NCBI GenBank assembly: GCA_016938235.1
Contig: JAFGVA010000049.1
Coordinates: 1 to 48,235, forward strand
Direction: 5' to 3'
Length of the DNA: 48,235 bases
Source: Bacteroidales bacterium
Lineage (GTDB): Bacteria; Bacteroidota; Bacteroidia; Bacteroidales; UBA10428
Part shown: in pieces, positions 1-31,381 of the stretch
How positions within the stretch are numbered: the first letter of the stretch is position 1
How the letters are laid out: each line of letters opens with the position of its first letter
The notes under the pieces: model-generated
Told to the model about the DNA's origin: nothing
The model's input: only the letters and a program-made list of their open reading frames with translations
The model's database searches: none
Position numbers and translations under genes: made by a program

Positions 1-3000
1 TGACTCATTAAAAATCCAGTGAAATACCTCGGCAGTTCCCGATGAGCTTAATTGAGTTTCGTTAATATCGGAACAGAATTCAGTTTCGCCTTCGATGAGA
101 ATTGTTGGTTTATCGGGAGATTCAAAAACAGTAACATTCACTGCATTTTGGCTGGGCTTTGAGCAGTCTTCGCTGTTAACTACAACCACAAAGTATTCTC
201 CCGAAACGCCAGCCTTTAGAATATTTGAAGCAAATTCTGCCTGGTGTAGGCCGTTTCGATACCAATAGTATTGTAAGGTTTCATCGTTGTAAATACTGAA
301 AGTTATGGTGTCGCCCAAGCAAATAACCTGGTCATCGCCCGGAACAATTTGTGGCACCGCGGGTACACCTACAATTTCGATTTCTATTGTGTCTGATTCT
401 ATGTTTTTACACAAACTTGCATTGTTTACAACTGTAATTGAGTACATACCTGAATCGGTTGCAAAAACTGCCCCGGCGTTGCCAATAATTACCGAATCTT
501 TATACCAGTAGTAAGAATACCCGCTTAATACAGGAGTTGTAAGTTTGCAGGTATCGCCTTTGCACAGCCTGTTGTGGTAACCTTCTTCTATTGTTATCTG
601 CGGGGTAGGCGGGTTCTCTGAAACAGTGATAAGGGCAGACTCTTCTGAAATACAATTGGCTGTGTTGGTTTCTATTTCAAGGCTGTAGGTATTAACAGAA
701 GCTACATCCTTAATAATCAGAAAGGTGTCGGAAACACCCAGATTATCATTGTTTTTCTGCCAGCGGTAAGTACAGTCGACAAAATAAGGTGCGACCAGAA
801 TTGTGCTATCGTTCTGGCAAAATTGGGTGTTATACGATGAATTGGCTAAATCAATATTGAACTGGGAATATTCAACAACTTCTGCGATTTTCATATCAGT
901 GTCTGAACAACCATTGTTAGCAGTAATGGTAAGTGTTACAGAGGTTGTTTCGTCAAACTTTTCATTAACAGTTCCCTGGTAAAGCGATGAGTCGCCGTTG
1001 CTGTATTTCCAGAGCCAGGAAGCAACCACTACCTGAGAAACATCGGATTGGTCAGCCATTACAGAGGTTTCTCCCTTGCAGACTGGGTCAACTGTAAATG
1101 CTGCTGTTGGCGAGGGTTTTACAATAACTTGGTGGGTTCGGCTTGCACTGTCACCCGATTCGGTGTAGGCCCAAAGTGTTACTTCGAATGTATCGGCTGT
1201 CTGGTAGAGATGGATTGGGTTTGTGGGGTTTTGTTCAGTGGAGGTTGTGCCATCTCCAAAAAACCATTTTCTGGCAATAATTGTATCGGTTGTAACTGAT
1301 GTGTCTGCAAAGGTTGTGGGAGTTCCATAGCAAACAGCTGTGTCATAATTAAAATCGGGGCTGACATCATTAATAATGAATGTGTCAACTGAAGACCATG
1401 TTCCACCAATCATACCGGAAGAAACAGCTTGAACGCCCCATAAATATTCATTAACGGGCAATGAGTCTAAGATAAAAAAATTATTTACTGAAGCGTTTCC
1501 CCGTTCGGGAATATATCTAAAGCCTGTTGCTGTATCACTCATTGGAGAGACGATGTCAAAATCAGAACCCTTGGTAGCAACCCAAACATTATAGGTTACG
1601 CCCTTCTCATTTACAGGTGTCCAGCTTAAACGAATTCCATACCCTTCTGTTTGAGTACTTAATTCAGTGGGGCTATCTAGTTGAGTGGGGGAGTAATTTC
1701 CGTTATTTGTATATTTTAAAACCACCTCTCCAGTTGGAGTTCCCAATCCACTAGATATAAAATCAGGGTCTCTGTCATTGTTTAAGTCAGCCACATCGGT
1801 TAAATATGGCCCTTTTGAAAGTGGTTCAAAGAAATTAGTATTTAATTCTATGTAATCCCCTCCTTCATAGAAATATACTTTCTTGATATTAACACTACTT
1901 TTCCCTGATAATAGGATATCCAAGTCATGATCACCATCAAAATCTATCCATTGGGCCTTTCCTTCAGATATACCTCTTAAAATAAAATTCATTTCAGAAA
2001 AACTATGCATACCATCATTTCGGTATATTTTTGTGTAATTATTTCTATATTCATCAAAACCACATATTAGTAAATCTAAATCACCGTCATGATCGATATC
2101 TCCTAAATCGGCTGAACCATTTGAAAGGTTTTTAATAAAAGCCCCACACGCAGTAAAAATGCCTAAATTATTATAGTAAATGACGGAAGCGCTCGAATCG
2201 GCGACAACTAAATCAATCTGCCCATCTGAATTTAAATCACCCACTACAGATGCCGGATAACCTAAGTCGAAATCGGTTATGCTTTGTGATAAATTAAATG
2301 AAGTATCATTATTGTTTTCATAAATCCAAATACCTGTAACAGATAAAGTGTTTTTTCTCCCTCCTACGAGTATTATGTCTAAATCTCCATCGTTATCAAT
2401 ATCGGCCCAATGGCAGTTGCCAAAACGGAGGCTTTGTAAACCAAAATCCTTTTCTGTGAAATTCCAATTGCCTTCGTTAATAAAAACTAAAGAAGATATA
2501 GCACCCTCAATTTCACCCATAGCCAATAAATCCAAATCTCCATCATTATCAAAATCCCCCCAATCAAATCCACATTTTTTGATAACAGGTAAATTATTAA
2601 TTTTTGTACTAAAAACTCCGGCATCATTTTGTGCAAGAATAGTAGAACTAAAACCTCCGGCTGAAAAATCTAAATCACCGTCTATATCAATATCTGCTAT
2701 CTTTAAATATGGATTATCAGGGTTTAAATTAGTGACATTTATGTCTATTTCTCCTTCTGAGAAGATTTCTTTTATTTGAAAACTTTGCTCTAAAGAGAAG
2801 GCCGAAGCCTTATAGACGCCATCAATGGCTTGTACTTTGTAGAAGTAAGTACCTGCATCAAGCCCTGAAAACTTGAAAGTATTGTTTTTACCGCAATTGC
2901 CAATTCTGCATAATAACTGAGTGCCTGTTGATAATCTGGCATCTGCTCTCTTTAAATCGGCCTGACCTGATGAGGAGCCAATGCTAATATTATAGTTTAA

Positions 3001-4674
3001 ACCATTAATTCCTGATTCGGAATCATTACTCTTTTTCCATTGTATAGTTACTTCATTTCCTCTGGTTGAATAAGTAAATACAGATGGAGTCGAAGGTATT
3101 GAATTCCCTAAATCCCTATTATTCAAAAATATTTTTGCAAATTCTATATCTCCGGGCCCCATACCTGATATCATCAAGTCCAGGTCGTTATCATTATCAA
3201 AATCGGCCCAATCAATATAGCCTTCTTCTGCCGCGCCTGCTACTATATTTTCGACTTCAATAAATGTACCATCGCCATTATTTTTATAAATCAAAGCTGT
3301 CCTGTTCCATCCTTCGTCAAAATACCTGCCAACAGTAGCTATATCTAAATATCCATCATTATTATAATCGCCCCATCGACAGCAACCTCGAGACATGCCC
3401 TGCAGTCCTGCATTAACTTCAAGAAATTCGTCATTGCCATTATTTTCATATATCGATAATACAAAACTATTGTCAATCAATTTTTGACCATTTATTAATA
3501 AATCCAGGTCGCCATCGTTGTCAAAATCGCCCCAATCAAAGTAACCATTATAAATAATTGGAAGACCGGTATCCAATTCTTCAAAAATTAAGTTTCCTTG
3601 ATTTTTATATAATGTTGTATAAAGGTTTCCATCAATAGTTCGTCCGCTTATTAAGATGTCCATTAAGCCATCGGTATTATAATCAGCTATTGAAATTGAA
3701 GGATTTACACCCATATTTTTAATACCTGTTTCAACTTCCGTAAACGTCAAATCTCCATTATTTAAATAGCATTTAGTTATTACCTCATTTGTTAGCATAT
3801 CGTTGCCACAAACAATAATGTCTTTTAAACCGTCATTATCTAAGTCAACACATTTGGCGTTTCCCTGCTCAACTTGTGTTAATCCAGCAGCTACTTCAGA
3901 AAAAACATTTGAGCCCTGGTTTTCAAAGAGTTTTGTCATGCCAGGGGAAACTATTCCTGCTACCAACAAATCCAGATCACCGTCATTATCAATGTCGCCC
4001 CAATCTTGATTAATAGTGTTTTGTCCGGAAATATCAGTTGGTATTTGTGTAAAAGAACCAGATCCATTATTAACATGAATTCTATCATTCAGAAATACAT
4101 CCATATCTCCATCTGAGTCACTATCGATTATCGAAAATGGATAGTATGTTCCTGAAAAAACCTGGCTACTTTCAGTAAAGGTGTGTATGCTTACTTCATA
4201 ATCTTCCGTTTCGCCATATGTGTAATTTCCACACGGGGTATTATAAAAAGTACCATAAGCACACCTTATTCGAAGTCTTGTTTTAACAAACGGATTATCG
4301 GAAGGAACTGTAAATGGAATAGAGTTTGTCTGATAAGTGGCTGTTGAATGAACATATCCTAAATATTCATTTGCATCATCAAAGTCACCATCATTGTTAT
4401 AATCTAACCAGGCATAGTAATAGTTGGAACTGAAATTGCCACTGGTGATACTAAGATTGTAACTATTCCCAACAATTAGCTCAGTGGTCAGGTTATCATA
4501 AAGGGTATAAGTTGATCCTGAGCACCCAGTTGAATTATTTGAAAGGGTATTTAATACAACTCCATTAATGAAATCAAAAGAACAACCAGATGTATGATTT
4601 ACTGCGCAATAGTCCTGGCAGTTTGTAATCTTGAGAAATGCAATGGTAACTATGAAAACAACAGCGGGTTTCAT
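1..4674 (-). CDS. Giant secreted GEVED/FG-GAP/PKD surface protein, C-terminus beyond window edge
   Basis: The frame is open from an ATG at 4674 to base 1, so about 1,558 residues are visible and the C-terminus lies outside the window. A short hydrophobic signal peptide (MKPAVVFIVTIAFL) is followed by a GEVED domain ending near residue 155 with YGETEDYEV. Two blocks of FG-GAP/VCBS repeats follow (about 165-520 and 630-990), with some 14 Asp-rich calcium-type loops such as DFDNDGDLD. FN3-like modules lie near 525-625 and 1000-1095, then two PKD-like domains (WFFGDGT near 1120) and several Ig-like modules of the type common in gliding and marine Bacteroidota. A T9SS sorting domain is expected beyond the edge but is not seen. 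It lies 80 bases downstream of the paralogous interrupted gene and may have been co-transcribed with it. Function is unknown; an extracellular adhesin or matrix role is inferred from the modules. Confidence 0.88.
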   Translation of the reverse strand, partial: MKPAVVFIVTIAFLKITNCQDYCAVNHTSGCSFDFINGVVLNTLSNNSTGCSGSTYTLYDNLTTELIVGNSYNLSITSGNFSSNYYYAWLDYNNDGDFDDANEYLGYVHSTATYQTNSIPFTVPSDNPFVKTRLRIRCAYGTFYNTPCGNYTYGETEDYEVSIHTFTESSQVFSGTYYPFSIIDSDSDGDMDVFLNDRIHVNNGSGSFTQIPTDISGQNTINQDWGDIDNDGDLDLLVAGIVSPGMTKLFENQGSNVFSEVAAGLTQVEQGNAKCVDLDNDGLKDIIVCGNDMLTNEVITKCYLNNGDLTFTEVETGIKNMGVNPSISIADYNTDGLMDILISGRTIDGNLYTTLYKNQGNLIFEELDTGLPIIYNGYFDWGDFDNDGDLDLLINGQKLIDNSFVLSIYENNGNDEFLEVNAGLQGMSRGCCRWGDYNNDGYLDIATVGRYFDEGWNRTALIYKNNGDGTFIEVENIVAGAAEEGYIDWADFDNDNDLDLMISGMGPGDIEFAKIFLNNRDLGNSIPSTPSVFTYSTRGNEVTIQWKKSNDSESGINGLNYNISIGSSSGQADLKRADARLSTGTQLLCRIGNCGKNNTFKFSGLDAGTYFYKVQAIDGVYKASAFSLEQSFQIKEIFSEGEIDINVTNLNPDNPYLKIADIDIDGDLDFSAGGFSSTILAQNDAGVFSTKINNLPVIKKCGFDWGDFDNDGDLDLLAMGEIEGAISSLVFINEGNWNFTEKDFGLQSLRFGNCHWADIDNDGDLDIILVGGRKNTLSVTGIWIYENNNDTSFNLSQSITDFDLGYPASVVGDLNSDGQIDLVVADSSASVIYYNNLGIFTACGAFIKNLSNGSADLGDIDHDGDLDLLICGFDEYRNNYTKIYRNDGMHSFSEMNFILRGISEGKAQWIDFDGDHDLDILLSGKSSVNIKKVYFYEGGDYIELNTNFFEPLSKGPYLTDVADLNNDRDPDFISSGLGTPTGEVVLKYTNNGNYSPTQLDSPTELSTQTEGYGIRLSWTPVNEKGVTYNVWVATKGSDFDIVSPMSDTATGFRYIPERGNASVNNFFILDSLPVNEYLWGVQAVSSGMIGGTWSSVDTFIINDVSPDFNYDTAVCYGTPTTFADTSVTTDTIIARKWFFGDGTTSTEQNPTNPIHLYQTADTFEVTLWAYTESGDSASRTHQVIVKPSPTAAFTVDPVCKGETSVMADQSDVSQVVVASWLWKYSNGDSSLYQGTVNEKFDETTSVTLTITANNGCSDTDMKIAEVVEYSQFNIDLANSSYNTQFCQNDSTILVAPYFVDCTYRWQKNNDNLGVSDTFLIIKDVASVNTYSLEIETNTANCISEESALITVSENPPTPQITIEEGYHNRLCKGDTCKLTTPVLSGYSYYWYKDSVIIGNAGAVFATDSGMYSITVVNNASLCKNIESDTIEIEIVGVPAVPQIVPGDDQVICLGDTITFSIYNDETLQYYWYRNGLHQAEFASNILKAGVSGEYFVVVVNSEDCSKPSQNAVNVTVFESPDKPTILIEGETEFCSDINETQLSSSGTAEVFHWIFNES

Positions 4675-4754
4675 TTGAGACTGATTTAATATGAGCATAA
4701 TATACAAAACAATCCTCTAAAAGCCAACGAATTATTGATAAATGCATAAAAATG

Positions 4755-7724
4755 TTACTCAATTATCAGATGTTCGGTCCAAACCTTATTTTCTGCAATA
4801 ATACGCAGTGTGTATATTCCGGTTTTTAGGTTTGGATTTTGTTCAGTTCCGATACGATAGGCAGATTTCTCAATTTTCTCAGAAATGATTTTCCTTCCGG
4901 TAATGTCTAAAATTTCCAGGGAGATATAGCCATAATAACTTCCTTCAAAATCGATATTAAAAATTCCCTGACTTGGATTAGGGAAGAGTATGATTGATAA
5001 ATCTGGAGGAGTATAACCGGCTAATTTAAATTTTGTTTTTTCAGTAATAAATGTATCTGCTATGGCTGTGCATCCTGAATCATCAGATATCTCAAGACTT
5101 ATAAAAATTGTATCATTTTCCAGATTTTCAATTGAACCAATCATTAAAATCTTATCTGTTTCATCCTTAACAATTTCATTGTCAATATACCAGCGATAAG
5201 TTGATACATTGTTGTTTGAACAGCCAACATAACAAATTGTAGGTCCGAATATGGTTAGTTTTGGTTTTTCAATGTCTGACTCAAAAGTAAGATCGATTTC
5301 ATCTGATTCTTCAAAACAGCCTCTGTTTTCCGGATTAACAGAAGTTACAAAATATCTCTCTTCTTCCAAAATTCCGATTAATGTTTTACTGGTAGAATCA
5401 AACCATTTTTCATTGCTTCGATTCCAGTAATAGTCGTAATTTGGATTAAAGTTTGTTACTTCGAGAATAACCTGGTCAAAGGGGCATCCGTTTGGTGTCT
5501 GGTTTTCAATGACTGGAACCGTTGGGTATTCAGCAACAGTAACCACAATGGGAGAACTGTATGCACTGCATCCGGATGAGTTTATAACTTCAAGTAAATA
5601 TTCTCCGGCCTCATAAACATCAATATCTGCTAAAGTTTGGTCTGGTATAGCACCTAAAATATCATGCCATTGGAAACTGAGTCCGGTAGGAGAGCTATTC
5701 AGACTTAATCTGACGGTGTTTCCATCACAGATATTTGTACTGGATTGGTTTCTGATTGCAGGTGTAGCTGGATTCTGATTTACAGTTACACTAACAGCTT
5801 CAGATTGTGCTGAGGCGCAATCCTGGGTGTTAATAACAGTGAGCCTGTAATTTCCTGCACTTTTAACAACGATCTCCTTTTCTGAATCTTCATATCCGCT
5901 TACAGACCAAATGTAATCTTTATAACTGGTTGTACCTATCATCCTGATTATTAAAGAGTCGTTTTGGCAGAATGTTGTATTTCCAATACTTTCTAAAACT
6001 GGTGTTGCCGGAGATGGTCTGACTATCAGTATTTTCGAATTTACACTTATGGCATTGCAGTCATGCTCATTAATAATTCTTACTGTATATGTGCCGGCTT
6101 GTGAAGCATCTATGCTGTCGGCAGTCTCGGCAGGTACAATGTCACCATCTTTTAGCCACTGGTAACTAAATTGGGGATTATATGGAACCCTTAACTTACT
6201 GCTATTGCCATTGCAGATATTAAGCGAGCTTTCATTTTCAATCAGATAACCTGTTGGTTCAGGATAATGTATAATGACAACGGTATCGGAAGAGAGTGAA
6301 CTGCAATGATAAACCGTATCTGTAACTTTGGCAATATATACTCCTCTTTCTTTTGCAAATTTCTCATGCGATGAGGTTCCGGTAGATTGGTTATCAATGA
6401 GCCAGTCGAAATGAAGTGCCGGATTATTTGTAACATCAAGTAAAATACTGTCACCAGGACAGAAATAGAAAGTATCTTTTACTGCATTAATCATCGGAAC
6501 ATCTGGTACAGGATTAAAAGTTATCTGTTTGTTGGAACTTGTAGTTGAACATAGTAATCCACTAATATTTGTACTATTCTGAACATATAAGGAATAATTT
6601 CCGGAAATATTTGAAACAGTTAATGAATCAGAGGTTGCTCCCGGAATCTGAACTCCATCCAGATTCCACCTATAAGTATAGTTTGCGTTGGTTTCAGCGG
6701 GATACAGAATAACACTATCACCCAGGCATTTAATAATATTACCAACAGGAATTATTGCTGATGGTGGATTAGGTGCTATGTAAACATTACTTGCATAGGA
6801 ATCAAAACAGGAATTTGTAGCCGTAACAATCAGAGTAACATTATAGGTTCCAGTATCAGTATAAATATGACTGGTATTACCAATTTCGTCAGAAGTTTTG
6901 GAATTTCCAAAATTCCACAGATATGAACTTACGGTGATATTGCTGGTATTTGTATTATCAGTAAAATCAGATACTGTGTTTAAACACACCGGCTCAGAAG
7001 AATACTCTGCCTGAGGTTTGTATTTTACAAATACCTCAGCCGAATCGGTTTGTTCAGTAAACTCTGATACAACTGTTAGTTTTACAGTATAGGTGCCACC
7101 AGTATCATAGGTGTGTGTTGGGTCCTTAAGGGTGGAATTGGAGCCATCGCCAAAATCCCAGAAATAGTTTACTATAATATCTTCACCAAGAACTGTTGAC
7201 TTATCTTCGAAAGTTGTTGGTTGCCCAGCACAAGTTGTATCAAAAGTAAAATCTGCATCGAGAGTAGAAACATAAAATGTATCAATAAAAGACCATGGTC
7301 CTCCTGAAAATGACTGATCAATAGCCTGTACACTCCAATAATATTTACCGGGTTCTAATCCACTAACCTTCCAGCTGTGTCCATAAGATGCATTTCCAGG
7401 TTGAGGTATATATCTGTAACCAGTTGACAAGTCCGATTCGGGTTGAATAATTTCATCACAATCAATAGTTGTTCCTAAACGAATATTGTATGAGTAACCA
7501 TATTGGTTATTTATCTTATCCCAATTTAGAAAAATATCTAACCCATTTTGTTCAAAGGACAAATTTTGAGGAGCACTATTTACTCTTTCGCTTGTACCCC
7601 AATTGTTATAAAGTATACAGGTTTGAAGTGGACTCATAAACCCATAGACTATATCAAGTCCTTTTTGATTATCTAAATCTGCAAAAACAATAGGAATATT
7701 ATCGTGTAGCAAGTAGCCACTAAA
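4755..7724 (-). pseudogene. C-terminal remnant of the interrupted surface protein with T9SS sorting domain
   Basis: This is the downstream half of the split gene, about 989 codons. It opens within the last FG-GAP unit (VFADLDNQKGLD) and continues through an FN3-like module (GKYYWSVQAID) and two PKD domains (YFWDFGDGS and YLWNFGN). About six Ig-like modules follow, with repeated 'picked from Cys to Trp' patterns such as FQWHD and YQWLKDG. The last 80 residues are a T9SS type A sorting domain (LFPNPSQGIFNI ... DITGRKI ... LKTGIYTLRI). The only usable start is a TTG at 7712, with no signal peptide, so even if translated the product could not reach the T9SS. It is best read as a dead remnant. Its frame is fully intact, which points to a recent insertion. 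Confidence 0.87.
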
Positions 7725-7729
7725 ATCTA
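7725..7729. repeat. Target site duplication, left copy
   Basis: atcta directly abuts the left inverted repeat. The identical 5-mer lies at 9383-9387 abutting the right one. Confidence 0.88.
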
Positions 7730-7747
7730 CCTAGATTCCGCAAGTAA
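7730..7747 (+). repeat. Left terminal inverted repeat of the IS1380 element
   Basis: CCTAGATTCCGCAAGTAA. It pairs with the reverse complement of 9365-9382 at 16 of 18 positions (mismatches at positions 5 and 7). Confidence 0.92.
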
Positions 7748-7759
7748 ATTGTTGAAAAA

Positions 7760-7794
7760 AGCTGTAAAGCTTACTGCATTTGGGCTTTACAGCT
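7760..7794 (+). terminator. Hairpin between IS left end and transposase
   Basis: An 11-bp perfect stem (agctgtaaagc pairing with gctttacagct) with a 13-base loop lies upstream of the transposase start. Hairpins at this place in insertion sequences can block transcription or translation entering from outside. That role is inferred here; there is no clear T-run after the stem. Confidence 0.5.
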
Positions 7795-7837
7795 AAGGTA
7801 TTTTCACCTAAATTGGTGTTGCTTACAAAATACCGAT

Positions 7838-9142
7838 ATGAAAATACTAAATAGTGCGCCAATTTCTCCATTTGGGGGCTTAAACTTTGTTCTCAAAGAA
7901 TTCGACAATCTTAAAATTGATCAGATATTTAAAGATAACCTTCCTAAGCTATCATCAAACAGCAAATACAAATGGAAAGATATCCTATATTCTTTTTGGT
8001 CGATTTACTTTTGTGGAGGAGAAAGCATAGAAGATTTAGGTCATAATTTTAAAAACTTTTTGTGTGACATTCCTTATATGAATGTACCAAGTCCTGACCG
8101 AATATTAAGTAGATTTAAGGAACTTTCGGTTCCAAAGTCTTTTCGAAAGAGTCCCCGAGGGAAGGCCATTAACGAGTTGAGCGAAAATAAAGCACTAAAC
8201 TCATTAAATATTAAGCTACTAAAGAAACTTAATCCTAAAAAATATACTCGTAATGACCTAACACTGGATTACGACAATACGATTATTTATACCGAAAAGG
8301 CAGATGCAAAAAACACTTATTTAAAAGCTTTTGGATATCAGCCGGGAGTAGCGATTATAGGTAACGATATTGTTGGTGTTCAAAATAGAAATGGCAACAG
8401 TGTTGCTTACGCTTTACAGGATGAAACTTTAAAAGTAATTTTTGAAAACCTTAAATCAGAAGGGGTTCAGGTAAAAAATTTTAGAGCTGATAGTGCATCT
8501 TACAATTTTAATATCCTGAGTCTGGTTAACCAATATGTTGACAACGTGTTTGTTCGCGTAAAAATGAGCGAGAGTGTTTATGAAGTTATTAACTCTATAG
8601 ATAAATGGACGCAAATAGACACGAAAGATGGTAGAACATTATATAGAGGTTCCGCAGTTTTTACACCTTTTAAGAAAACTGCTAAGGAGCAAAATAAAAA
8701 AGAGCTGCTTAAAGAATATAAAATTGTTGTTACAAAAGAAGCTAATTGCGATGGACAGCTTAATATGTTTACCAATGAAGCTTGTGTATATGGTTGTATT
8801 ATGACTAATGATTTCACTAAAACAGATGACGAAATTGTATTCTTTTATAATCAAAGAGGAGCGACAGAACGAGAATTTGATGTACTGAAAAATGATTTTG
8901 GTTGGCAAAACCTACCTTTCTCAAAGCTTGAGCAAAACACAGTATTTCTAATACTTACTGCTATATGTCGTAACTTATATAACTATATTATTAGTCACTT
9001 CTCTAAAATATATAAACACCTAAAATCTAATTTCAGAATTAAGAAATTCATCTTTCGTTTTGTTTGTATACCTGGCAAATGGGTGAAATCGGGTAGAACT
9101 ATGAAGTTAAGGCTGTATGGCTCTTTGGCCTTTAAGACATAG
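7838..9142 (+). CDS. IS1380-family DDE transposase
   Basis: A 434-residue transposase that would cut and move the surrounding element. Candidate acidic catalytic residues are D144 (with D146, in LTLDYDNT), D218 (in FRADSA) and E344. E344 lies in YNQRGATEREFDVLK, which matches the Y(2)R(3)E(6)K signature of the IS4-like DDE superfamily (Y337, R340, E344, K351). Length is normal for the family and there is no frameshift. The C-terminal segment (FIFRFVCIPGKWVKSGR) resembles the basic tail of Bacteroides IS1380-type transposases. The ATG at 7838 follows the left end by 108 bases, and a hairpin at 7760-7794 lies between them. I see no strong ribosome binding site, which is usual in Bacteroidota. 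Confidence 0.9.
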   Translation: MKILNSAPISPFGGLNFVLKEFDNLKIDQIFKDNLPKLSSNSKYKWKDILYSFWSIYFCGGESIEDLGHNFKNFLCDIPYMNVPSPDRILSRFKELSVPKSFRKSPRGKAINELSENKALNSLNIKLLKKLNPKKYTRNDLTLDYDNTIIYTEKADAKNTYLKAFGYQPGVAIIGNDIVGVQNRNGNSVAYALQDETLKVIFENLKSEGVQVKNFRADSASYNFNILSLVNQYVDNVFVRVKMSESVYEVINSIDKWTQIDTKDGRTLYRGSAVFTPFKKTAKEQNKKELLKEYKIVVTKEANCDGQLNMFTNEACVYGCIMTNDFTKTDDEIVFFYNQRGATEREFDVLKNDFGWQNLPFSKLEQNTVFLILTAICRNLYNYIISHFSKIYKHLKSNFRIKKFIFRFVCIPGKWVKSGRTMKLRLYGSLAFKT

Positions 9143-9364
9143 CCTAAAGAAATATTGAACAGCCAAATCTTACTATTAAACAAATTAACAAAGTGTGCCT
9201 TTGATATAAAAACCTATGCCTTAACCGTTTGTCTCAAGAGAATCAAACCCCATTCTGTTATAATTTTTTAAGTAAAGAAGCAAAACGTCCAAAATACCAC
9301 CACGAAAAGGAAGGGAAATAATACTTTGTCGCACAATAAGTCCAACTATTTAGGCTTGTATTTA

Positions 9365-12337: not shown

Positions 12338-12533
12338 CAAAAAAAGTTATAGATAAAACTGCACCAAATATTTTGTTGTATATAGTATACAATTTACAAC
12401 TTCAAGGTAGCCGTTTCAAAACAGAGTATCAACAATTTCAGGGCATTGGTCAATTTAACGATTTTAATCATCTTAATAAAAAGTATTCTCTTGTATGTTA
12501 TGATTTTGTAACTTGGTTTTAAAATCACAGTCA

Positions 12534-15500
12534 ATGAATCGTCAATCTACTATTAAACAAGCAGTTTACAAGCATTGTGTATTTTTATTACTATTCTTTC
12601 TCGGCAGTACACAATTAATAGCTCAAAAATATTCATTTACAAGTTTCTCAATTAAAGATGGATTACCCAATTCATCAATAAGTGTGTTGTACCAGGATTC
12701 CCGCGGTTTAATATGGATTGGAAGCCAGGGCGGTGGCCTTTGTCAGTACGATGGCTATAATTTTTATCCTCTTGAAATTGATGATGCCTCAAAAACAACC
12801 AATATTTTCGATATAGCTGAAGATACTCTGGGCAGAATATGGTTTAGCGCCGATTCCGGTTTGTTTATCTTCGATGGTGAAAAATTAAGCCAGCCAATCA
12901 CATATAATGAAACTGGTAAAATCGGGAAATTATTTTGTGAAAAGTCCGGCCTTATCTGGTTATTGACTAAAGATAAAGGAGCGCTTCGGGTTAACCCCGC
13001 GAGCCAGGTAAAGATTATTGAAAAATACGGTATCGAATCCGGCTTGAAGTCAAATCATTACATCGATATTGAAGAAGATCTTTTTGGCAGATTCTGGTTG
13101 GTTTCCGACAGCAATCTTACAATATTGGATCCTGCTCAGGAAATGAATACTATTGATCTGGGATTGAAATATGCTATTCCTCCGGTTAAGATTACTGCAA
13201 TTGATGCGGCAAGTTCGTCAGAAATATGGATTGGCACTGCAAATAAAGGAGTTATTTTACTGTCGTATGACTCGTTATCATGTTACGAAAAAAGAAGCTA
13301 TAACAGCTATTTCTATGATATCGATGATAATATTCTTTCAGTTACTGTTGATAAAAGCGATAATGTATGGATTGGTACAGATGATAACGGTCTGATTTAT
13401 ATCGATTATCCTTTTGTAAAAATACTGGCAGCTGAGAATGGACTTGAATCAAACATGGTTACCGATATCCTGGAAGATTCTGAAGGGAATGTCTGGTTTG
13501 GAACACAAAATAGTGGAGTTAAACTTTTTGCCGGTTGGCAATTCATTCATTACGATTCAAAATCAGGACTGCCTGACAATGCTATAAGCTCTATTGCTCA
13601 GGACAGAAGTGGGAACTACTGGTGCACCGGTAGCCTGGGACTGTATCGTTTTGCAAGAGATAACGACAGATTGGAGTATGTACAGAATGTAATGCTTGAT
13701 GATTTTGAAAATGTCGATATAAACCGAATACTGTTTCTTACGGGAAATAATATAATTTTTGGAACAGCTTCAGATGGAATTCTATTAATCAGAGATAATA
13801 AGGTTTATCATTATAATGAAACTCAAGGATTGGCAGGAAATGAGGTAAACTGTCTTTATGCTGATACCAGTAAAATCTGGATAGGAACAGGGAAGGGTTT
13901 ATCGCTGCTGACTAAAGACACTCTAATGGATTTGACACATAAGCAAGCTTCACTTGCAAATGGAGTTAATGCTATTGTTCAGGATAAAAAAGGGAATGTA
14001 TACCTGGGAAGCAATAATGGTATTGTTGTTCTAAAGGGTGAAGAAGTCTTGCGGTTTGGTAAAGCAAATAATTTAATGCATGTTCGAATAAACTCATTGG
14101 TTTTGGATGAGAAAAACAACCTCTTTGTTGGAACGCTGGGCGGTGGAATATATACATGTTCTGTAGATAACATTTCGGGAAATACACTTTTCAAGACTTT
14201 TGCCGGAGATGGAAAATTGTTGTCAGATAATGTTTTTTCTATGGCAAAATTTAAGGATACTTTGCTTGTTGTCGGCACCGATAAGGGAGCTAATATAATA
14301 GAAATAGAATATGACTCAATTCCATTAGTTTCTGCCATTCATAGCTACGATAATTCCAACGGTTTTTTAAATACAGAATGCAATCCGAATGCCATTCTGG
14401 TTGATCAATCATCGTATGTGTGGTTTGGCACTAAATCCGGACTTACCTGCTACGACAGGCAACGTGAGCAGAAATACCATAAAAAGCCTCGAATTTATCT
14501 TACAGGTCTGGAGGTAAACTTCGAAGCTGTTAAGTGGCAATCAAAAGATGACGGACCGGATGAATGGTATAGTTTTCCGAAAAATTTAAAGTTAAAGCAT
14601 AACGAAAACTATTTAAACTTTTCTTTTTCCGGGGTTTATTTCTCTGAAGGATTACAATACCAGTATTTTCTCGAAGGGTTAAACCGCGATTGGAGTAACC
14701 CAAGCCTTGAACGTACCGAGGACTTCTCAAAACTTAGTCCCGGGAAATATAATTTCAGAGTCAGGGCAGTAACAAAATCAGGTTTAATTAGCGACGAACA
14801 AAGCTTTGCTTTCAGAATTAAACCTCCTTTCTGGCGAACATGGTGGTTTACTCTTCTTTTCTTTGCTGCAATTATTTACCTGGTAATCTGGTATATCCGG
14901 TACAGGGAACAAAAACTAAAACACGATAAAGAAGTTCTTGAAGAAACCGTAAAACAGCGAACCCAGGAAATCAGGGAGCAGAAAACGCACATTGAACAGC
15001 AAAAACAGGAACTCACCGATAGCATAGAATATGCGAAACGTATACAAGATGCTGTTATTTCTCAACCTACGGGGATAGAGAAATATCTTAGCGATTATTT
15101 TATAATGTTCCTGCCGCGCGATATTGTTAGTGGCGACTTCTACTGGTTTGGCGAATACGATAATAAATTTATATTCTCTGTAGCCGACTGCACCGGTCAT
15201 GGCGTTCCGGGAGCTTTCATGAGCATGTTGGGAATACGTTTGTTAAACGAGATTGTGTTAGAACGAGGGGTAACTGCTCCTAACGAGATACTCGATCAGT
15301 TAAGAGATGGAGTTATACATGCCCTAAAACAGGAAGGCAAAGAATCGACGACTAAAGACGGTATGGATATGGCCCTTTGTACTATTGATAAATCAAAGGG
15401 TAAACTTTATTTTTCGGGTGCCTATAATGCTCTTTGGCTAATCAGGGGAGATGAAGTTTTAACCTATAAAGCAGATCGAATGCCAGTGGCAATTTACTTT

Positions 15501-15758
15501 AAACTGAACGATTTTACCTGCCACGAAATTGATTGCCAACCCGGCGATCAGCTTTATTTATTCTCCGACGGATTCCCTGATCAGTTTGGTGGTCCGGAAC
15601 AGAAAAAATACATGTCGAAAAAACTGCGCGAAAATTTACTTTCTATTTCACATTTACCAATGGATCAACAAAGAGAATACCTGCTTAAAGAGTTTTATGA
15701 ATGGAAAGGCGACTCCGAACAAATAGACGATGTTTCTTTAATGGGGGTGAAGATTTAA
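12534..15758 (+). CDS. Membrane sensor: periplasmic two-component propeller, Y_Y_Y and SpoIIE/PP2C phosphatase
   Basis: A 1,074-residue signal-transducing phosphatase. I use the ATG at 12534; a TTG at 12513 would only add seven residues before the signal peptide (CVFLLLFFLGSTQLIAQ). Residues about 30-640 are Reg_prop beta-propeller blades with repeated W-I/F-G-T motifs (GLIWIGSQGGG, NVWIGTDDNG, NVWFGTQNSG). A Y_Y_Y domain follows at about 690-765 (LSPGKYNFRVRAV). One membrane helix lies near 770-790, then a basic coiled coil at about 795-845. The C-terminal 215 residues are a SpoIIE-type PP2C domain with metal-site motifs GDFYW, DCTGHGVPGAF, DGMD, FSDGFPDQ and a final DDVSL. Known propeller sensors usually end in a histidine kinase; here the output is a Ser/Thr phosphatase. 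It probably dephosphorylates an anti-anti-sigma or similar protein in the cytoplasm (inference). It is a paralogue of 28160-31381. Confidence 0.9.
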   Translation: MNRQSTIKQAVYKHCVFLLLFFLGSTQLIAQKYSFTSFSIKDGLPNSSISVLYQDSRGLIWIGSQGGGLCQYDGYNFYPLEIDDASKTTNIFDIAEDTLGRIWFSADSGLFIFDGEKLSQPITYNETGKIGKLFCEKSGLIWLLTKDKGALRVNPASQVKIIEKYGIESGLKSNHYIDIEEDLFGRFWLVSDSNLTILDPAQEMNTIDLGLKYAIPPVKITAIDAASSSEIWIGTANKGVILLSYDSLSCYEKRSYNSYFYDIDDNILSVTVDKSDNVWIGTDDNGLIYIDYPFVKILAAENGLESNMVTDILEDSEGNVWFGTQNSGVKLFAGWQFIHYDSKSGLPDNAISSIAQDRSGNYWCTGSLGLYRFARDNDRLEYVQNVMLDDFENVDINRILFLTGNNIIFGTASDGILLIRDNKVYHYNETQGLAGNEVNCLYADTSKIWIGTGKGLSLLTKDTLMDLTHKQASLANGVNAIVQDKKGNVYLGSNNGIVVLKGEEVLRFGKANNLMHVRINSLVLDEKNNLFVGTLGGGIYTCSVDNISGNTLFKTFAGDGKLLSDNVFSMAKFKDTLLVVGTDKGANIIEIEYDSIPLVSAIHSYDNSNGFLNTECNPNAILVDQSSYVWFGTKSGLTCYDRQREQKYHKKPRIYLTGLEVNFEAVKWQSKDDGPDEWYSFPKNLKLKHNENYLNFSFSGVYFSEGLQYQYFLEGLNRDWSNPSLERTEDFSKLSPGKYNFRVRAVTKSGLISDEQSFAFRIKPPFWRTWWFTLLFFAAIIYLVIWYIRYREQKLKHDKEVLEETVKQRTQEIREQKTHIEQQKQELTDSIEYAKRIQDAVISQPTGIEKYLSDYFIMFLPRDIVSGDFYWFGEYDNKFIFSVADCTGHGVPGAFMSMLGIRLLNEIVLERGVTAPNEILDQLRDGVIHALKQEGKESTTKDGMDMALCTIDKSKGKLYFSGAYNALWLIRGDEVLTYKADRMPVAIYFKLNDFTCHEIDCQPGDQLYLFSDGFPDQFGGPEQKKYMSKKLRENLLSISHLPMDQQREYLLKEFYEWKGDSEQIDDVSLMGVKI

Positions 15759-26376: not shown

Positions 26377-26407
26377 TCTGATTTTTATATACATTGAGTT
26401 ATATTTG
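26377..26407 (+). promoter_or_regulatory. Bacteroidota-type promoter of the caspase-sensor operon
   Basis: TATATTTG at 26400-26407 is an exact match to the -7 consensus TAnnTTTG, and TCTG at 26377-26380, 19 bases upstream, is a near match to the -33 TTTG. Transcription would start near 26414, which fits the ATG at 26429 and argues against the TTG at 26405 inside the -7 box. Confidence 0.5.
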
Positions 26408-26428: not shown

Positions 26429-27202
26429 ATGAACATTTTCAGAAAATACCTATCAATACCATTTTTTTTGCTGTTTTTATTTAATAGCATTAATGTTTTT
26501 GGAAATTCAGATGTTGCTATTGCAAATATCGATTTTTACTTATTTGAAAATAAAATAGTTACTGTATATGACATTGTTGGGAGTAATCGTTATCAGCGTT
26601 TTGATATAAAGCTGCATTTTGAAACCAAGGAAGGAAGAGTTATAACACCTACTTCAATTACAGGAGATGTTGGTTTCCCTGTGTCAGGAGGTGAACAGAA
26701 AAAGATTTATTGGAATGTATTTAACGATTTACTGGAATTAACAGAAGAAATAAAGCCGGTTATAACAATTGTTAATACCTATGAAGAATTTGGAGGTCCG
26801 GCAAATGCCCTGTTGTCTCTAGCTGTGCCGGGTTTAGGTGATACTTATGTTAGAAATACTAAAGAATCTCTTTTAAAACCATACTTCATCACAGCTGCAT
26901 CATACGGTCTCGTCGGTTATGGTATATATCAAAAAATTGTTTCAAACGATTATTTTGGGCAGTATGAAAACGAAACCAATCAGGAGAATTTCGATGATTT
27001 ATATAACAAAGCAAATACTGCACATCATGACTTTATAATATTCACTGCAATTGGTGGAACAGTATGGCTTGCAGATGTTGTTCATGTTGCTTTAAGAGGT
27101 AAAAAGAACACAACAAAGAACAGGGAGTTTTACGAAAATATGACCTTTCACTACCAGTATGTTCCGAATGGTTCGGGTGTAAGACTGGTGTATAAGTTTT
27201 AG
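26429..27202 (+). CDS. Exported protein of unknown function with a DUF5683-like membrane segment
   Basis: A 257-residue protein read from the ATG at 26429, which starts a signal peptide or anchor (MNIFRKYLSIPFFLLFLFNS). A longer start at 26405 lies inside the likely promoter. Residues about 30-120 look like a beta-sandwich (FDIKLHFETKEG, GEQKKIYWNVFNDL). This is followed by ALLSLAVPGLGDTYV, which resembles the Gly-rich hairpin of DUF5683-type Bacteroidota proteins, and by two hydrophobic helices (about 155-170 and 210-228). The match is by eye and not secure. It is the first gene of a tight group: 46 bases before the caspase gene, which is 5 bases before the propeller-SpoIIE gene. A membrane partner or adaptor for the caspase or sensor is a positional guess only. 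Confidence 0.65.
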   Translation: MNIFRKYLSIPFFLLFLFNSINVFGNSDVAIANIDFYLFENKIVTVYDIVGSNRYQRFDIKLHFETKEGRVITPTSITGDVGFPVSGGEQKKIYWNVFNDLLELTEEIKPVITIVNTYEEFGGPANALLSLAVPGLGDTYVRNTKESLLKPYFITAASYGLVGYGIYQKIVSNDYFGQYENETNQENFDDLYNKANTAHHDFIIFTAIGGTVWLADVVHVALRGKKNTTKNREFYENMTFHYQYVPNGSGVRLVYKF

Positions 27203-27248
27203 CAATATTTTATTATGCTGATAATGTAATTATGTTAAAAAAGTTACC

Positions 27249-28154
27249 ATGAAATATCGAATCCGTTTAACCATTCTTTCATGCTTATTCTTAACGGCAT
27301 TTAGTTTTTCGCAACAAGGCGAAGGTGATTTTAAATCGTTGAATTTAACTAAAGAATCAAATCCTGCTTATCGTGGCGATCCACTTAAAGGCTTAAACGT
27401 TGCAGGAGCTATTGAAGAATTGAAATTTGGTAAGTTTTATGCGCTGATAATAGGTATTGATAAATATTCCGGCAATTGGGTACCTCTTAGTAATGCAGTG
27501 AACGATGCGAAAACTATTGAAGCGATGTTGAAAGAAAAATATCAATTCGATAAGTTTATTTCATTATATAACGAACAGGCTAGCAGGATGGGTATTATGA
27601 ATGCTTTCGAAGGCTTATTACAAGAAGTCAATCCCGAAGATAATTTGTTTATTTTCTATAGTGGCCATGGCGAATACAAAGAAGAACTTGATAAAGGTTA
27701 CTGGGTACCCTATGGTGCAAGAAGCAAATCAACCTATGAACTAATTTCAAATTCCGATATTCAAACTTTCTTAAAAGGTATACCATCGAAGCACACATTG
27801 TTAGTTTCTGATGCCTGTTTCAGTGGCGATATTTTTAGAGGAAATACGACTCCGATATCATTCGAAGATTCTGAGAAATATTATGCCAAGGTTAATGAAT
27901 TATCTTCAAGGAAAGCCATAACATCCGGGGGAGTAGAACCTGTTCTCGATGGAGGTAAAGATGGCCATTCTGTATTTGCGTTTTATCTGCTTAGAATGTT
28001 AAATCAGAACGACAAAAAATATATCGATGCCAGTCAGATATACGAAGGAATCAGAATTCCTGTTCAAAGCAATTCATCTCAGACTCCCCAGTTTCAACCT
28101 ATTCATGATACAGGCGATGAAGGTGGGCAGTTTATCTTTATTAAAAAAGACTAG
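27249..28154 (+). CDS. Exported caspase-like protease (peptidase C14 family)
   Basis: A 301-residue protein with a signal peptide (MKYRIRLTILSCLFLTAFSFSQ) and a caspase/metacaspase domain covering residues about 60-300. The catalytic dyad is visible: His140 in YSGHGE and Cys190 in SDACFSGD, with the family's usual preceding strands (FYALIIGIDKY, NAVNDAKTI, NLFIFYSGHG). No p10-type or repeat domains follow. Family members cut after basic or acidic residues; the specificity here cannot be read from sequence. The signal peptide places the protease in the periplasm or outside, not in the cytoplasm. It is the middle gene of the operon; the next gene's GTG lies 5 bases after its stop, so translational coupling is likely. 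A role in processing the sensor or surface proteins is inferred from context. Confidence 0.88.
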   Translation: MKYRIRLTILSCLFLTAFSFSQQGEGDFKSLNLTKESNPAYRGDPLKGLNVAGAIEELKFGKFYALIIGIDKYSGNWVPLSNAVNDAKTIEAMLKEKYQFDKFISLYNEQASRMGIMNAFEGLLQEVNPEDNLFIFYSGHGEYKEELDKGYWVPYGARSKSTYELISNSDIQTFLKGIPSKHTLLVSDACFSGDIFRGNTTPISFEDSEKYYAKVNELSSRKAITSGGVEPVLDGGKDGHSVFAFYLLRMLNQNDKKYIDASQIYEGIRIPVQSNSSQTPQFQPIHDTGDEGGQFIFIKKD

Positions 28155-28159
28155 TTTTC

Positions 28160-31100
28160 GTGCTTAAAAGAAGCATACATACCTTTTCAGTTTTTTTTCT
28201 GTTTCTGCTTGCTCCATATCTTCAGGCACAGCAATATAGTTTTACGAAATACTCTCTTGCCGAAGGTCTTTCTCAGTCTACAGCCTACTGCCTTCTGCAG
28301 GATTCCAGGGGATATTTATGGATTGGAACAAACGGAAATGGCATTAACCGCTTCGATGGAAAGAATTTTATTGAAATATCAAAAAAGAACGGACTTGCAG
28401 GCAATATCGTACGTACAATATTTGAAGATAAAAAGGGTAATATCTGGGTTGGAACAGATGGGGGTATCAGCATTTTTAATGGATACAATATTAAAAACAT
28501 AACAAATTCCAACGGACTACGTGGTTCTGTAGTTCTGTGTGTCAATCAAGACTCAATAGATAACTATTGGGTAGGTACCAACGATGGAGGGCTAAACAGG
28601 TTAAATTTTTTTAGAGATAGTATTACAATAAAAACTTTTGGAAAAGATGAAGGTTTAAGGGGCAGGCTTGTGTTTAATATTCAGGTAGATAGCCTGAATC
28701 GCTTATGGTTATCAACCGTTGGAGGAGTTAATCTGGTTACGCAGAATAAAGATTCTCTGGAGTTTTTACACTTTATTGAAGAAAGAGGCGAAATCCCAAG
28801 TAATATGGTTATAACAGCCTCTCCCGATAATAATGGTGATCTTGTTTTCGGAACTTATGATGCAGGTGTTTTTAGAATTAAAGCTTATAATAGTACTGAT
28901 AAATTTAAAGTTACAGGTTCTTTTAATACTATTTCTGAAGGTAATAATTTTGAAACTGTGTGGAGTATCTTACCCGACTCAGAAAATAATATTTGGTTTT
29001 GTACAGATAAAAAGGGTATAATATTTCAGTCGGGAAATAAAATTGTCGACTTCAATGAAAATAATGGCTTACCCGAAAATCAGGTTTTGTCTTCAATACA
29101 AGATTCCGAAGGTAATATATGGTTTGGTACTTTTAGTAATGGTATATGCAGATTTAGCGGTTTTAATTTCGTGCATTATGCAGAAGATGAAGGCTTTGGC
29201 GAACCTATAACTTCAATCATTCAAGCTGGCGATAATAGTCTGCTGTTTGCATCAGAAGGTGCAGGTATACTACAATCAGAACTTATTAATGGACAACTGG
29301 CAATTCCTGAAACTATTCTCAAAGAAGCATCCTTGTTTGTTAATGATATGTTTTATGATAAAACAAGTCAGACTATATGGATAGCCACTGCTGATAGGGG
29401 AGTCTTTAAGGTTTGTAACGGGGTAATTGAAAATTTCAATAGTTTTAATGGACTGACAAATAATACCGTTAGTTGCATTCATGTTGATTCTAAAAAGCGT
29501 TTGTGGGCAGGAACAAAAGGCGGTTTGAGTATTTTAATAGAATCAGGTTTTAAAAATTTTACTGAAAATTCAGATCCTAAACTGGTAAGTAACGAGGTCC
29601 AGACAATAATTGAGGATAGAGAAAAAACAATTTGGATTGGAACATTGAATGGATTGGTTTCTTTTACTGAAACATCAATGACCAACTATGATGAAGTTGA
29701 AGGTTTAAACAGCAAAAAGATACATTGTTTAGCTGAGGATTATATGGGGAACATATGGATTGGAACTTTTGGCGGTGGAGTATTTAAGTTTGATAAAGAG
29801 CTTGATACTCTTCCTATTCAAAAAATACTTGACGATAACTCTATATTATCAAATAATGTATATTCTTTACTTTTTTATAACGATACAACACTTTTATGCG
29901 GAACCGATAGGGGATTAAATCAAATAGGGTTAAATAAGAACATGCATGTTAAATATATTCGGAGCTATTCTCGTAGTGAAGGTTTTATCGGTACTGAAAG
30001 CAATATAAACTCTATTTTTAAGGATAAAGATAATAATGTTTGGATTGGAACTAAAGATAATTTAACCCAGCTAAAGATAGATGAGTTTAAGGAACAAAGT
30101 TCAATAAAAAATATAGAGATCACGAATATTCAGCTTAATTACGAAGAAGTTAATTGGATTAGCACAGGTTTTAATGTTAGCAAATGGTTTAACGTACCAC
30201 TTGACCTTAAATTGAAACATAATGAAAACAAACTTTCAATTGTATATCGGGCTATTTATTTAACTAATCCTGATAAAATTATTTATAGTTATCGAACAAA
30301 AGAATCTGAGAAATGGTCTCCTTCAACCAAGGAAAATTCAATTACTCTGCCTGGCCTAACATCCGGGAAATACACATTTCAGGTCAGAGCTAGCATTGAT
30401 AATATAGTCTGGAGCCAGCCCGCCTCTTTTTCTTTTATCATAAAGCCTCCAGTCTGGAAAACCTGGTGGTTTATTCTGGTAACTATTTTTATTATTTTGA
30501 CAGGTTTCATTTCCTTAATTAAAACCAGGGAGCGCAAGCTTCTGAGGGATAAACAGATCCTCGAAGAAACTGTTAAAAAGCGTACCCAGGAAATAAGGGA
30601 ACAAAAAACCCGAATTGAACGGCAAAAGCAAGAGCTAACCGATAGTATTGAATATGCTAAAAAGATACAGGAGGCAGTAATTTCCAAGCCAAAAGACGTA
30701 GAAAAATATCTTAGTGAATATTTCATTTTGTTTCTTCCGCGCGATATAGTAAGTGGTGATTTTTATTGGTTTGGAGAGTATGACAATAAATTCGTTTTCT
30801 CGGTTGCCGATTGTACCGGTCATGGTGTTCCGGGAGCATTCATGAGTATGTTGGGTATTCGTCTGCTTAACGAAATAGTGCTTGAACGTGGTGTTACAGC
30901 ACCCAATAAAATATTGAATCAACTTAGGGCTGGAGTTATTCAGGCTTTACAACAGGGAGGTGAAATTTCTGAGACTCGTGATGGCATGGACATCGCATTA
31001 TGCACATTCGATCCGGTAAAAAGTAAATTATATTATTCCGGAGCATACAACTCATTGTGGCTGATGCGCGATGGCGAGATAGAAACCTATAAAGCAGATA

Positions 31101-31381
31101 GAATGCCTGTTGCAGTCTTCGATAAGCAAGAAGATTTCACTTGTCACGAAATTGATTGCAAAAAGGGCGATCAGATTTATATATTCTCCGATGGCTACCC
31201 CGACCAGTTTGGCGGAGATAATCTGAAGAAATACATGTCGAAAAATCTTCGCGAAAAAGTAGTTTCCATATCAAACTTACCTATGGAGCAGCAAAAAGAA
31301 AAACTGCTCGAAGAGTTTTATGCCTGGAAGGGCGATACCGAACAAATCGATGATGTTACCCTGCTGGGGGTGAAGATTTAA
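28160..31381 (+). CDS. Membrane sensor: periplasmic two-component propeller, Y_Y_Y and SpoIIE/PP2C phosphatase (second copy)
   Basis: A 1,073-residue protein starting with GTG at 28160. The next residues form a signal peptide (LKRSIHTFSVFFLFLLAPYL), and no ATG fits better. The architecture matches the paralogue at 12534: Reg_prop blades over about 25-640 (YLWIGTNGNG, NIWVGTDGG, NIWFGTFSNG), Y_Y_Y at about 690-765 (LTSGKYTFQVRAS), one membrane helix near 770-790 (WWFILVTIFIILTGFISLI), a coiled coil and a SpoIIE/PP2C domain with GDFYW, DCTGHGVPGAF, DGMD, FSDGYPDQ and DDVTL. The cytoplasmic half is far more similar between the copies than the propeller, suggesting one shared target and two different signals. 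It is co-transcribed with the caspase gene. The protein it dephosphorylates is not encoded here. Confidence 0.9.
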   Translation: MLKRSIHTFSVFFLFLLAPYLQAQQYSFTKYSLAEGLSQSTAYCLLQDSRGYLWIGTNGNGINRFDGKNFIEISKKNGLAGNIVRTIFEDKKGNIWVGTDGGISIFNGYNIKNITNSNGLRGSVVLCVNQDSIDNYWVGTNDGGLNRLNFFRDSITIKTFGKDEGLRGRLVFNIQVDSLNRLWLSTVGGVNLVTQNKDSLEFLHFIEERGEIPSNMVITASPDNNGDLVFGTYDAGVFRIKAYNSTDKFKVTGSFNTISEGNNFETVWSILPDSENNIWFCTDKKGIIFQSGNKIVDFNENNGLPENQVLSSIQDSEGNIWFGTFSNGICRFSGFNFVHYAEDEGFGEPITSIIQAGDNSLLFASEGAGILQSELINGQLAIPETILKEASLFVNDMFYDKTSQTIWIATADRGVFKVCNGVIENFNSFNGLTNNTVSCIHVDSKKRLWAGTKGGLSILIESGFKNFTENSDPKLVSNEVQTIIEDREKTIWIGTLNGLVSFTETSMTNYDEVEGLNSKKIHCLAEDYMGNIWIGTFGGGVFKFDKELDTLPIQKILDDNSILSNNVYSLLFYNDTTLLCGTDRGLNQIGLNKNMHVKYIRSYSRSEGFIGTESNINSIFKDKDNNVWIGTKDNLTQLKIDEFKEQSSIKNIEITNIQLNYEEVNWISTGFNVSKWFNVPLDLKLKHNENKLSIVYRAIYLTNPDKIIYSYRTKESEKWSPSTKENSITLPGLTSGKYTFQVRASIDNIVWSQPASFSFIIKPPVWKTWWFILVTIFIILTGFISLIKTRERKLLRDKQILEETVKKRTQEIREQKTRIERQKQELTDSIEYAKKIQEAVISKPKDVEKYLSEYFILFLPRDIVSGDFYWFGEYDNKFVFSVADCTGHGVPGAFMSMLGIRLLNEIVLERGVTAPNKILNQLRAGVIQALQQGGEISETRDGMDIALCTFDPVKSKLYYSGAYNSLWLMRDGEIETYKADRMPVAVFDKQEDFTCHEIDCKKGDQIYIFSDGYPDQFGGDNLKKYMSKNLREKVVSISNLPMEQQKEKLLEEFYAWKGDTEQIDDVTLLGVKI

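Follow-up and report, generated by a model that had tools for sequence, protein, structure and literature searches.

Caspase-like proteases encoded directly upstream of propeller receptor phosphatases in Bacteroidales

To our knowledge, neither the partner nor the signal of most bacterial caspases has been described. Here we analyse a stretch of 48,235 nucleotides from a Bacteroidales bacterium of the UBA10428 lineage (assembly GCA_016938235.1, contig JAFGVA010000049.1; hereafter the window), in which genes for an exported membrane protein (G1), a caspase-like protease and a transmembrane sensor with a phosphatase output stand in a row. In the PDB, the ectodomain of the window sensor is nearest by sequence to the two-component sensors 4a2l (2.8e-48) and 3v9f, hybrid two-component sensors (HTCS) of Bacteroides, a group known for sensing glycans. 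The window sensor shares with them Reg_prop propellers, a Y_Y_Y ectodomain and one transmembrane helix, but differs in that its output is a SpoIIE-type PP2C phosphatase and that a caspase is encoded alongside; it carries no histidine kinase, receiver or DNA-binding Pfam domain, with SpoIIE in their place, and so falls outside the HTCS. Like SiaA, RsbU and SpoIIE, it is a sensor protein of the membrane that ends in a PP2C domain of the SpoIIE type, matching the putative serine phosphatase 6k4e (9.9e-34) and aligning with the SiaA equivalog model NF038263 at 181.8 bits (cut-off 700); unlike them, it has a propeller ectodomain and a caspase partner. Its score against the PorZ model NF052228 is likewise below the cut-off (99.4 versus 260 bits).

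The window caspase has the fold and the His/Cys dyad of described bacterial caspases (orthocaspases, EACC1-associated caspases and defence caspases), and the EACC1 and PADLOC models align with it; it differs from them in its export-type N-terminus and its receptor-phosphatase neighbour. It scores 52.3 bits against the EACC1-associated caspase model NF047832 (cut-off 140). The PADLOC caspase model matches it at 4.5e-17, no PADLOC defence model matched G1 or the sensor, and no known defence partner beside the caspase marks it as an anti-phage defence protein, the other neighbours having been scanned with Pfam only. Metacaspases of Bacteroidetes and some of their gene contexts have been reported (PMC4933709), with the term SpoIIE absent from the available text of that paper, and orthocaspases of Bacteroidetes have been counted in a paper that gives a basic P1 preference for orthocaspases in general (PMC6426788). 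No description of a caspase gene next to that of a receptor with SpoIIE or Reg_prop was seen in the available portions of the open-access papers listed, which include passages of PMC4933709, PMC6426788 and PMC5468089.

The closest counterpart of the window locus is a module that we term A-type. As in that module, the window caspase stands directly before a Reg_prop/Y_Y_Y/SpoIIE receptor at a short gap; it differs in belonging to another caspase lineage with G1 as partner, and in having a sensor outside the canonical clade. Each window gene was searched in 60 genomes, the window's own included, and neighbourhoods were annotated with profiles built for this analysis, in a set of 100 stretches around gene-search matches from which the weakest matches were left out. 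In 16 of the 60 genomes an A-type caspase immediately precedes a sensor with Reg_prop, Y_Y_Y and SpoIIE of about 1060 aa, which in one case (L171) is truncated where the contig stops. Two forms of the caspase occur: a stand-alone protein of 262–265 aa, and one of about 780 aa in which TPR repeats precede the caspase domain. PF00656 was not seen when the whole ~780-aa proteins of L158, L149 and L276 were scanned, and their C-terminal 246–247 aa matched it at E values of 1.9e-16, 2.1e-16 and 9.3e-18, which dispels doubt over their caspase domain. The 15 complete adjacent sensors form one clade with 100/100 support in a 45-sensor tree built on the last 720 aa of each row, with seven sensors below 650 aa dropped and the L171 sensor, which shows no SpoIIE part, excluded; the non-adjacent rows of this tree are chiefly top-ranked matches and not a random sample. 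At one locus (L271, positions 3261–6681), two A-type caspases of 266 and 781 aa stand in tandem before one sensor.

We extended the search to a draw of 392 genomes of the order, using a linked A-type caspase as query and counting only downstream sensors, so that the figures apply to the A-type alone. A-type caspases were found in 47 genomes (51 matches at E ≤ 1e-40), and in 40 of these, spanning 15 families, the next same-strand gene is the sensor, with the caspase first in all 40. The median gap is 14 nt, the extremes are -4 and 356 nt, and 25 of the 40 gaps do not exceed 20 nt, lengths that vary with the start codon chosen; in L243 and L244 the two genes overlap in an ATGA. Of the 40 linked genomes, 36 have a match in an independent sensor search (below) that reaches the phosphatase end, on another contig in G015; the match is incomplete at that end in G326, G298 and G402, and falls below threshold in G120 because the sensor there is split into two open reading frames. 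Among the seven remaining genomes, two (G057 and G059) encode the sensor at another place, in one (G388) a contig end interrupts the locus, and four (G000, the window's own genome, with G146, G248 and G303) showed no sensor of the clade; the A-type caspase of G000 lies 771 nt before its contig ends, and the rest of that genome yielded no such sensor either. A draw of 395 genomes from the phylum yielded only G000 itself at E ≤ 1e-30.

An independent search for the sensor (E ≤ 1e-170) recovered 42 genomes, 41 of which also carry an A-type caspase. Across the 392 genomes, both genes occur in 41, the caspase alone in 6, the sensor alone in 1 and neither in 344 (Fisher p 6e-48, a value that overstates the independent evidence, the genomes being related). 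In the sole sensor-only genome (G279), 138 nt separate the sensor from the beginning of its 3.4-kb contig. The placement of A-type caspases beside sensors is far beyond chance, and a caspase gene followed at once by one for a Reg_prop/SpoIIE sensor makes up a two-gene module that is conserved in the order. Because the two are repeatedly encoded side by side, the A-type caspase and its receptor probably work together. The interpretation in the preliminary description, made from the window's letters, is partly supported, and on the caspase–receptor pairing it is stronger than that description could know. It had proposed to look for a conserved neighbourhood of all three genes, with a gene order unique to this genome as ground for rejection, and the answer is divided: the exported caspase with a Reg_prop/SpoIIE receptor proved to be a conserved unit, with another caspase subtype and sensor clade (40 of 47 genomes), whereas the exact G1–caspase–sensor order was seen in this genome only, none of 22 other G1–caspase pairs or fusions having a sensor downstream.

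The window locus itself was correctly described as three tightly spaced genes for a membrane protein, an exported caspase with a His/Cys dyad and a PP2C sensor, as open reading frames, Pfam and alignment bear out; export was judged from N-termini (Table 1). The layout is operon-like, with gaps of 46 nt between G1 and caspase and 5 nt between caspase and sensor by open-reading-frame calls, and it places the caspase directly upstream of the receptor as in the canonical module. The flanking genes lie on the opposite strand; the left one encodes a secreted protein with Por_Secre_tail, the right one an acyltransferase (Pfam). A promoter and terminator scan gave counts close to those of shuffled sequence and was uninformative.

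Table 1. Positions of the locus and related features within the window.
Feature	Position	Strand	Basis
G1, exported membrane protein	26429..27202	+	ORF; alternative TTG start at 26405
Caspase-like protease (PF00656), predicted exported, not A-type	27249..28154	+	Pfam, alignment, model
Reg_prop/Y_Y_Y/SpoIIE transmembrane sensor	28160..31381	+	Pfam, PDB matches, motifs
Paralogous Reg_prop/SpoIIE sensor without caspase neighbour	12513..15758	+	Sequence comparison
DDE transposase gene among secreted-protein genes	7838-9142		

The window protease belongs to the peptidase C14/caspase family by fold and dyad. It matches PF00656 at an E value of 4.8e-19, and a 24-row alignment shows no change at His140 or Cys190. 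In its AlphaFold2 model, the predicted local distance difference test (pLDDT) score per ten-residue block is mostly 82–98 from residue 61 onwards and 62–68 in the loops at residues 191–210 and 231–240, and the best PDB fold matches are MALT1 and the yeast metacaspase Yca1 (E ~2e-11). Proteolytic activity is predicted from this fold and dyad. G1 starts with a signal segment and has no Pfam family. Its AlphaFold2 model (mean pLDDT 80.7) comprises an N-terminal helix, an Ig-like domain and a C-terminal helical hairpin, with no PDB match at E ≤ 0.001 to identify it.

The window sensor comprises a signal peptide, Reg_prop propellers (E 1.4e-54), Y_Y_Y (2.1e-8), one transmembrane helix (residues 769–787), a coiled coil and a PP2C domain matching SpoIIE (PF07228, 4.4e-20). 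The PP2C domain contains the metal-binding Asp/Gly motifs SGDF, ADCTGHG, SDG and DDVT, and by domain and motifs the sensor is predicted to be a phosphatase of the SpoIIE/RsbU type. Propeller receptors are thereby seen with a phosphatase output in place of a kinase. In the sensor tree, the window sensor groups with its paralogue in the window; the two are 77–78% identical in the coiled coil and PP2C domain and 29% in the propellers, and they look like two inputs to one output, one of them with a caspase. Elsewhere in G000, Reg_prop/SpoIIE sensors stand directly behind the gene of a ~323-aa protein at L277 (positions 3108–9307) and L303 (3418–9134); these proteins have no Pfam family and themselves follow genes for PD40/PKD proteins. 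Receptors of this type thus have varied neighbours.

The explanation that we favour is a protease–receptor unit in which the caspase would signal through the propeller receptor to the PP2C domain and a partner switch, the window being a second and separate assembly of it, a proposal that we hold to be evenly balanced between right and wrong. Speaking for it are the linkage and co-occurrence of the canonical pair, its persistence away from the usual flanking genes, the retained dyad and Cys motif, the single clade of adjacent sensors, the correlation of caspase and PP2C distances, and the two window receptors with like outputs and unlike ectodomains. Caspase and sensor would be made together, and the caspase would act in the periplasm, where it would meet the propeller. 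Once triggered, the caspase or its peptide product would engage or trim the ectodomain, a change that would switch the PP2C domain, and the phosphatase would dephosphorylate a STAS-type anti-anti-sigma protein to change gene expression by partner switching. The conserved, co-retained pair names one concrete partner for a caspase and offers a testable path from protease to propeller receptor, PP2C and STAS; if the proposal holds, caspase proteolysis would be tied to gene control across the envelope and not to cell death or phage defence.

The own genome contains candidates for the last steps, as the preliminary description had anticipated in pointing to STAS and anti-sigma genes elsewhere, in the form of six STAS matches, of which four are short independent frames that pass the family cut-off, and eight HATPase_c_2 matches, two in short stand-alone frames. 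Both families are also common in control genomes (10 of 14 for STAS and 12 of 14 for HATPase_c_2). Among the neighbours of the window sensor scanned with Pfam, no STAS or kinase gene was found.

Several observations weigh against the proposed unit, the first of them from the window pair's ancestry. The window caspase is 26% identical to the A-type and lies outside the A-type clade of the caspase tree, and the window sensor is 36% identical to an A-type sensor and outside the A clade of the sensor tree, so the two trees rule out that the pair is an orthologue of the canonical module. The caspase tree is a quick tree without bootstrap, built on domains of at least 190 aa; the listed duplicate loci and L044–L103 were excluded, and L220, which duplicates the window caspase, was retained. 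In it, the window caspase falls among caspases of Bacteroidota and Ignavibacteria metagenome-assembled genomes (14 rows including the window and its copy; SH-aLRT, an approximate likelihood-ratio test, 99), and none of the surveyed genomes of the order has a row inside this clade. Beyond the window, 22 other non-A caspases in the wide loci fetched have G1 upstream or fused, and none of these pairs or fusions has a sensor downstream. The 12 loci of the closest relatives of the window caspase likewise show no sensor in the stretch seen; beyond the caspase, this stretch covers 295 nt in L036 and 1.2 kb or more in each of the others. A lipoprotein-like gene, so read from N-termini, follows G1 and caspase instead of a sensor in 10 of 16 listed loci, and the exact triple was seen in one genome only among the genomes and loci examined.

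Chance could account for such a picture. A G1–caspase unit, perhaps gained horizontally, would have settled before a lineage-specific duplicate of a Reg_prop/SpoIIE gene, and the canonical module would be uninformative for the window. That caspase and sensor both fall outside the canonical clades, that the triple recurs in no other genome examined and that a transposase gene lies in the window (Table 1) agree with such an event. Order, strand and the 5-nt spacing, however, agree with the canonical module, and with five Reg_prop/SpoIIE genes in G000 among ~4,500 genes (estimated from 5.22 Mb) the probability of landing by chance immediately before one of them, on the correct strand, is ~0.0006 per caspase, or ~0.05 expected over 95 non-A caspase open reading frames. 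We consider chance somewhat unlikely. If not a chance neighbourhood, the window pair is an independent pairing, probably analogous to the canonical module, and has the look of the same caspase–receptor design put together separately. From the trees, the G1–caspase pair was possibly gained horizontally, and the unit we propose would be this pair joined to one of two duplicated receptors.

Other points against the proposed unit come from the A-type proteins. Distances between A-type caspases track those of the sensor PP2C domain beyond kinship (partial correlation 0.525; 2 of 2000 permutations as high), in favour of the unit, better than those of the ectodomain (0.335; 73 of 2000), where the mechanism would need contact and where a housekeeping control, RibD, is as high (0.447); this analysis used 16 of the 30 pair loci, that is, of the fetched loci with a full-length sensor. 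No conserved basic cleavage site is obvious in the ectodomains of the 30 A-type sensors, where K341 (L158 numbering) is the only basic residue to reach 85% conservation. The catalytic His is missing from one linked caspase, L267.

The main rival explanation reverses the flow, with the receptor-phosphatase sensing glycans, peptides or the like, the caspase serving as an effector of its regulon and co-expression keeping the pair together. The closer tracking of the PP2C domain and the missing His of L267 would suit this arrangement, as would the likeness of the propellers to the Bacteroides hybrid sensors 4a2l and 3v9f and the other partners that precede the sensors of L277 and L303. It would nevertheless demand a narrow choice of effector, the same caspase type adjoining the sensor in 40 of 47 genomes and both being kept unlinked in two, and we judge it unlikely.

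Catalytic residues were otherwise retained across the A-type. The Cys is present in 68 of 68 aligned copies, which rejects its loss from sensor-less caspases, and both His and Cys in 66, the second exception being an unlinked copy, L272. Of the 51 linked copies, 49 have the motif DACESGP at the Cys, against 6 of the 17 unlinked ones, a pattern that fits a possible relaxation of constraint once the sensor is gone; nine of the 17 unlinked copies, however, come from one genus, and one of the 17 (L233) is truncated by a contig end. The six unlinked copies with the motif are three in G057 and G059, L233, and L228 and L266 in genomes without a detected sensor.

A further point against the unit comes from genus g1, in which the caspase keeps its usual place without the sensor. 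That place is prmC/ribD–caspase–sensor–dxs, with dxs assigned by Pfam and ribD and prmC named from their sequences, and the sensor-less g1 loci show ribD and dxs (L144) or dxs (L143, L151, L162, L182 and L189) beside the caspase. An old, rarely rearranged stretch of this kind might by itself explain the adjacency of caspase and sensor, and at least one of the three genes adjoins 17 of the 30 full pair loci. The other 13 keep the pair without any of them; 11 of these have at least 3.3 kb visible upstream, and the downstream flank is mostly sensor, so that the absence of dxs is weakly tested. Moreover, three of the nine g1 genomes (G003, G005 and G007) carry a short caspase and sensor away from that place while other loci hold caspase and dxs without the sensor, and G057 and G059 retain both genes in trans. 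Inert synteny is accordingly highly improbable. Because of the 13 loci without the usual flanks and the genus g1 loci, we conclude that the pair survives changes of context and that a caspase may also lose its adjoining sensor.

The protease–receptor proposal could be widened to exported caspases as a class, each a dedicated partner acting upstream of a phosphatase receptor in the membrane, in a pairing assembled more than once; this view is tentative, and we lean against it. A periplasmic caspase would then read an envelope event and set a PP2C partner switch through a propeller receptor, and the assemblies would be the canonical module, the window and possibly a TPR–SpoIIE and WD40–caspase pair of L161 and L170. 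Among the 95 non-A caspase open reading frames of the wide loci (window included), two are followed by a Reg_prop gene, namely those of the window and of L195, whose neighbour lacks SpoIIE, and two are preceded by a SpoIIE gene, those of L161 and L170. In the latter loci (L161, positions 460–6037; L170, 7839–13471), a gene for a SpoIIE phosphatase of 727–734 aa, with TPR in L161, lies 1 and 23 nt, respectively, directly upstream of a caspase gene of ~1130 aa, whose product has WD40 repeats in L161. L195 (669–14739) encodes four caspases on the same strand and, 5 nt further on, a Reg_prop protein with a type IX secretion system sorting domain.

The order of G1, caspase and lipoprotein-like gene (L105, L107, L110, L112, L116, L117, L125, L126, L127 and L130) is, by its gene content, another conserved module of predicted exported caspases. 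Its third gene lies 2–64 nt behind the caspase; eight of the third proteins were scanned, and four of these contain Fib_succ_major, in most cases alongside Fn3 domains. At L123 (positions 6720–8699), L167 (7665–9455) and L196 (7408–9576), G1-like and caspase domains share one reading frame.

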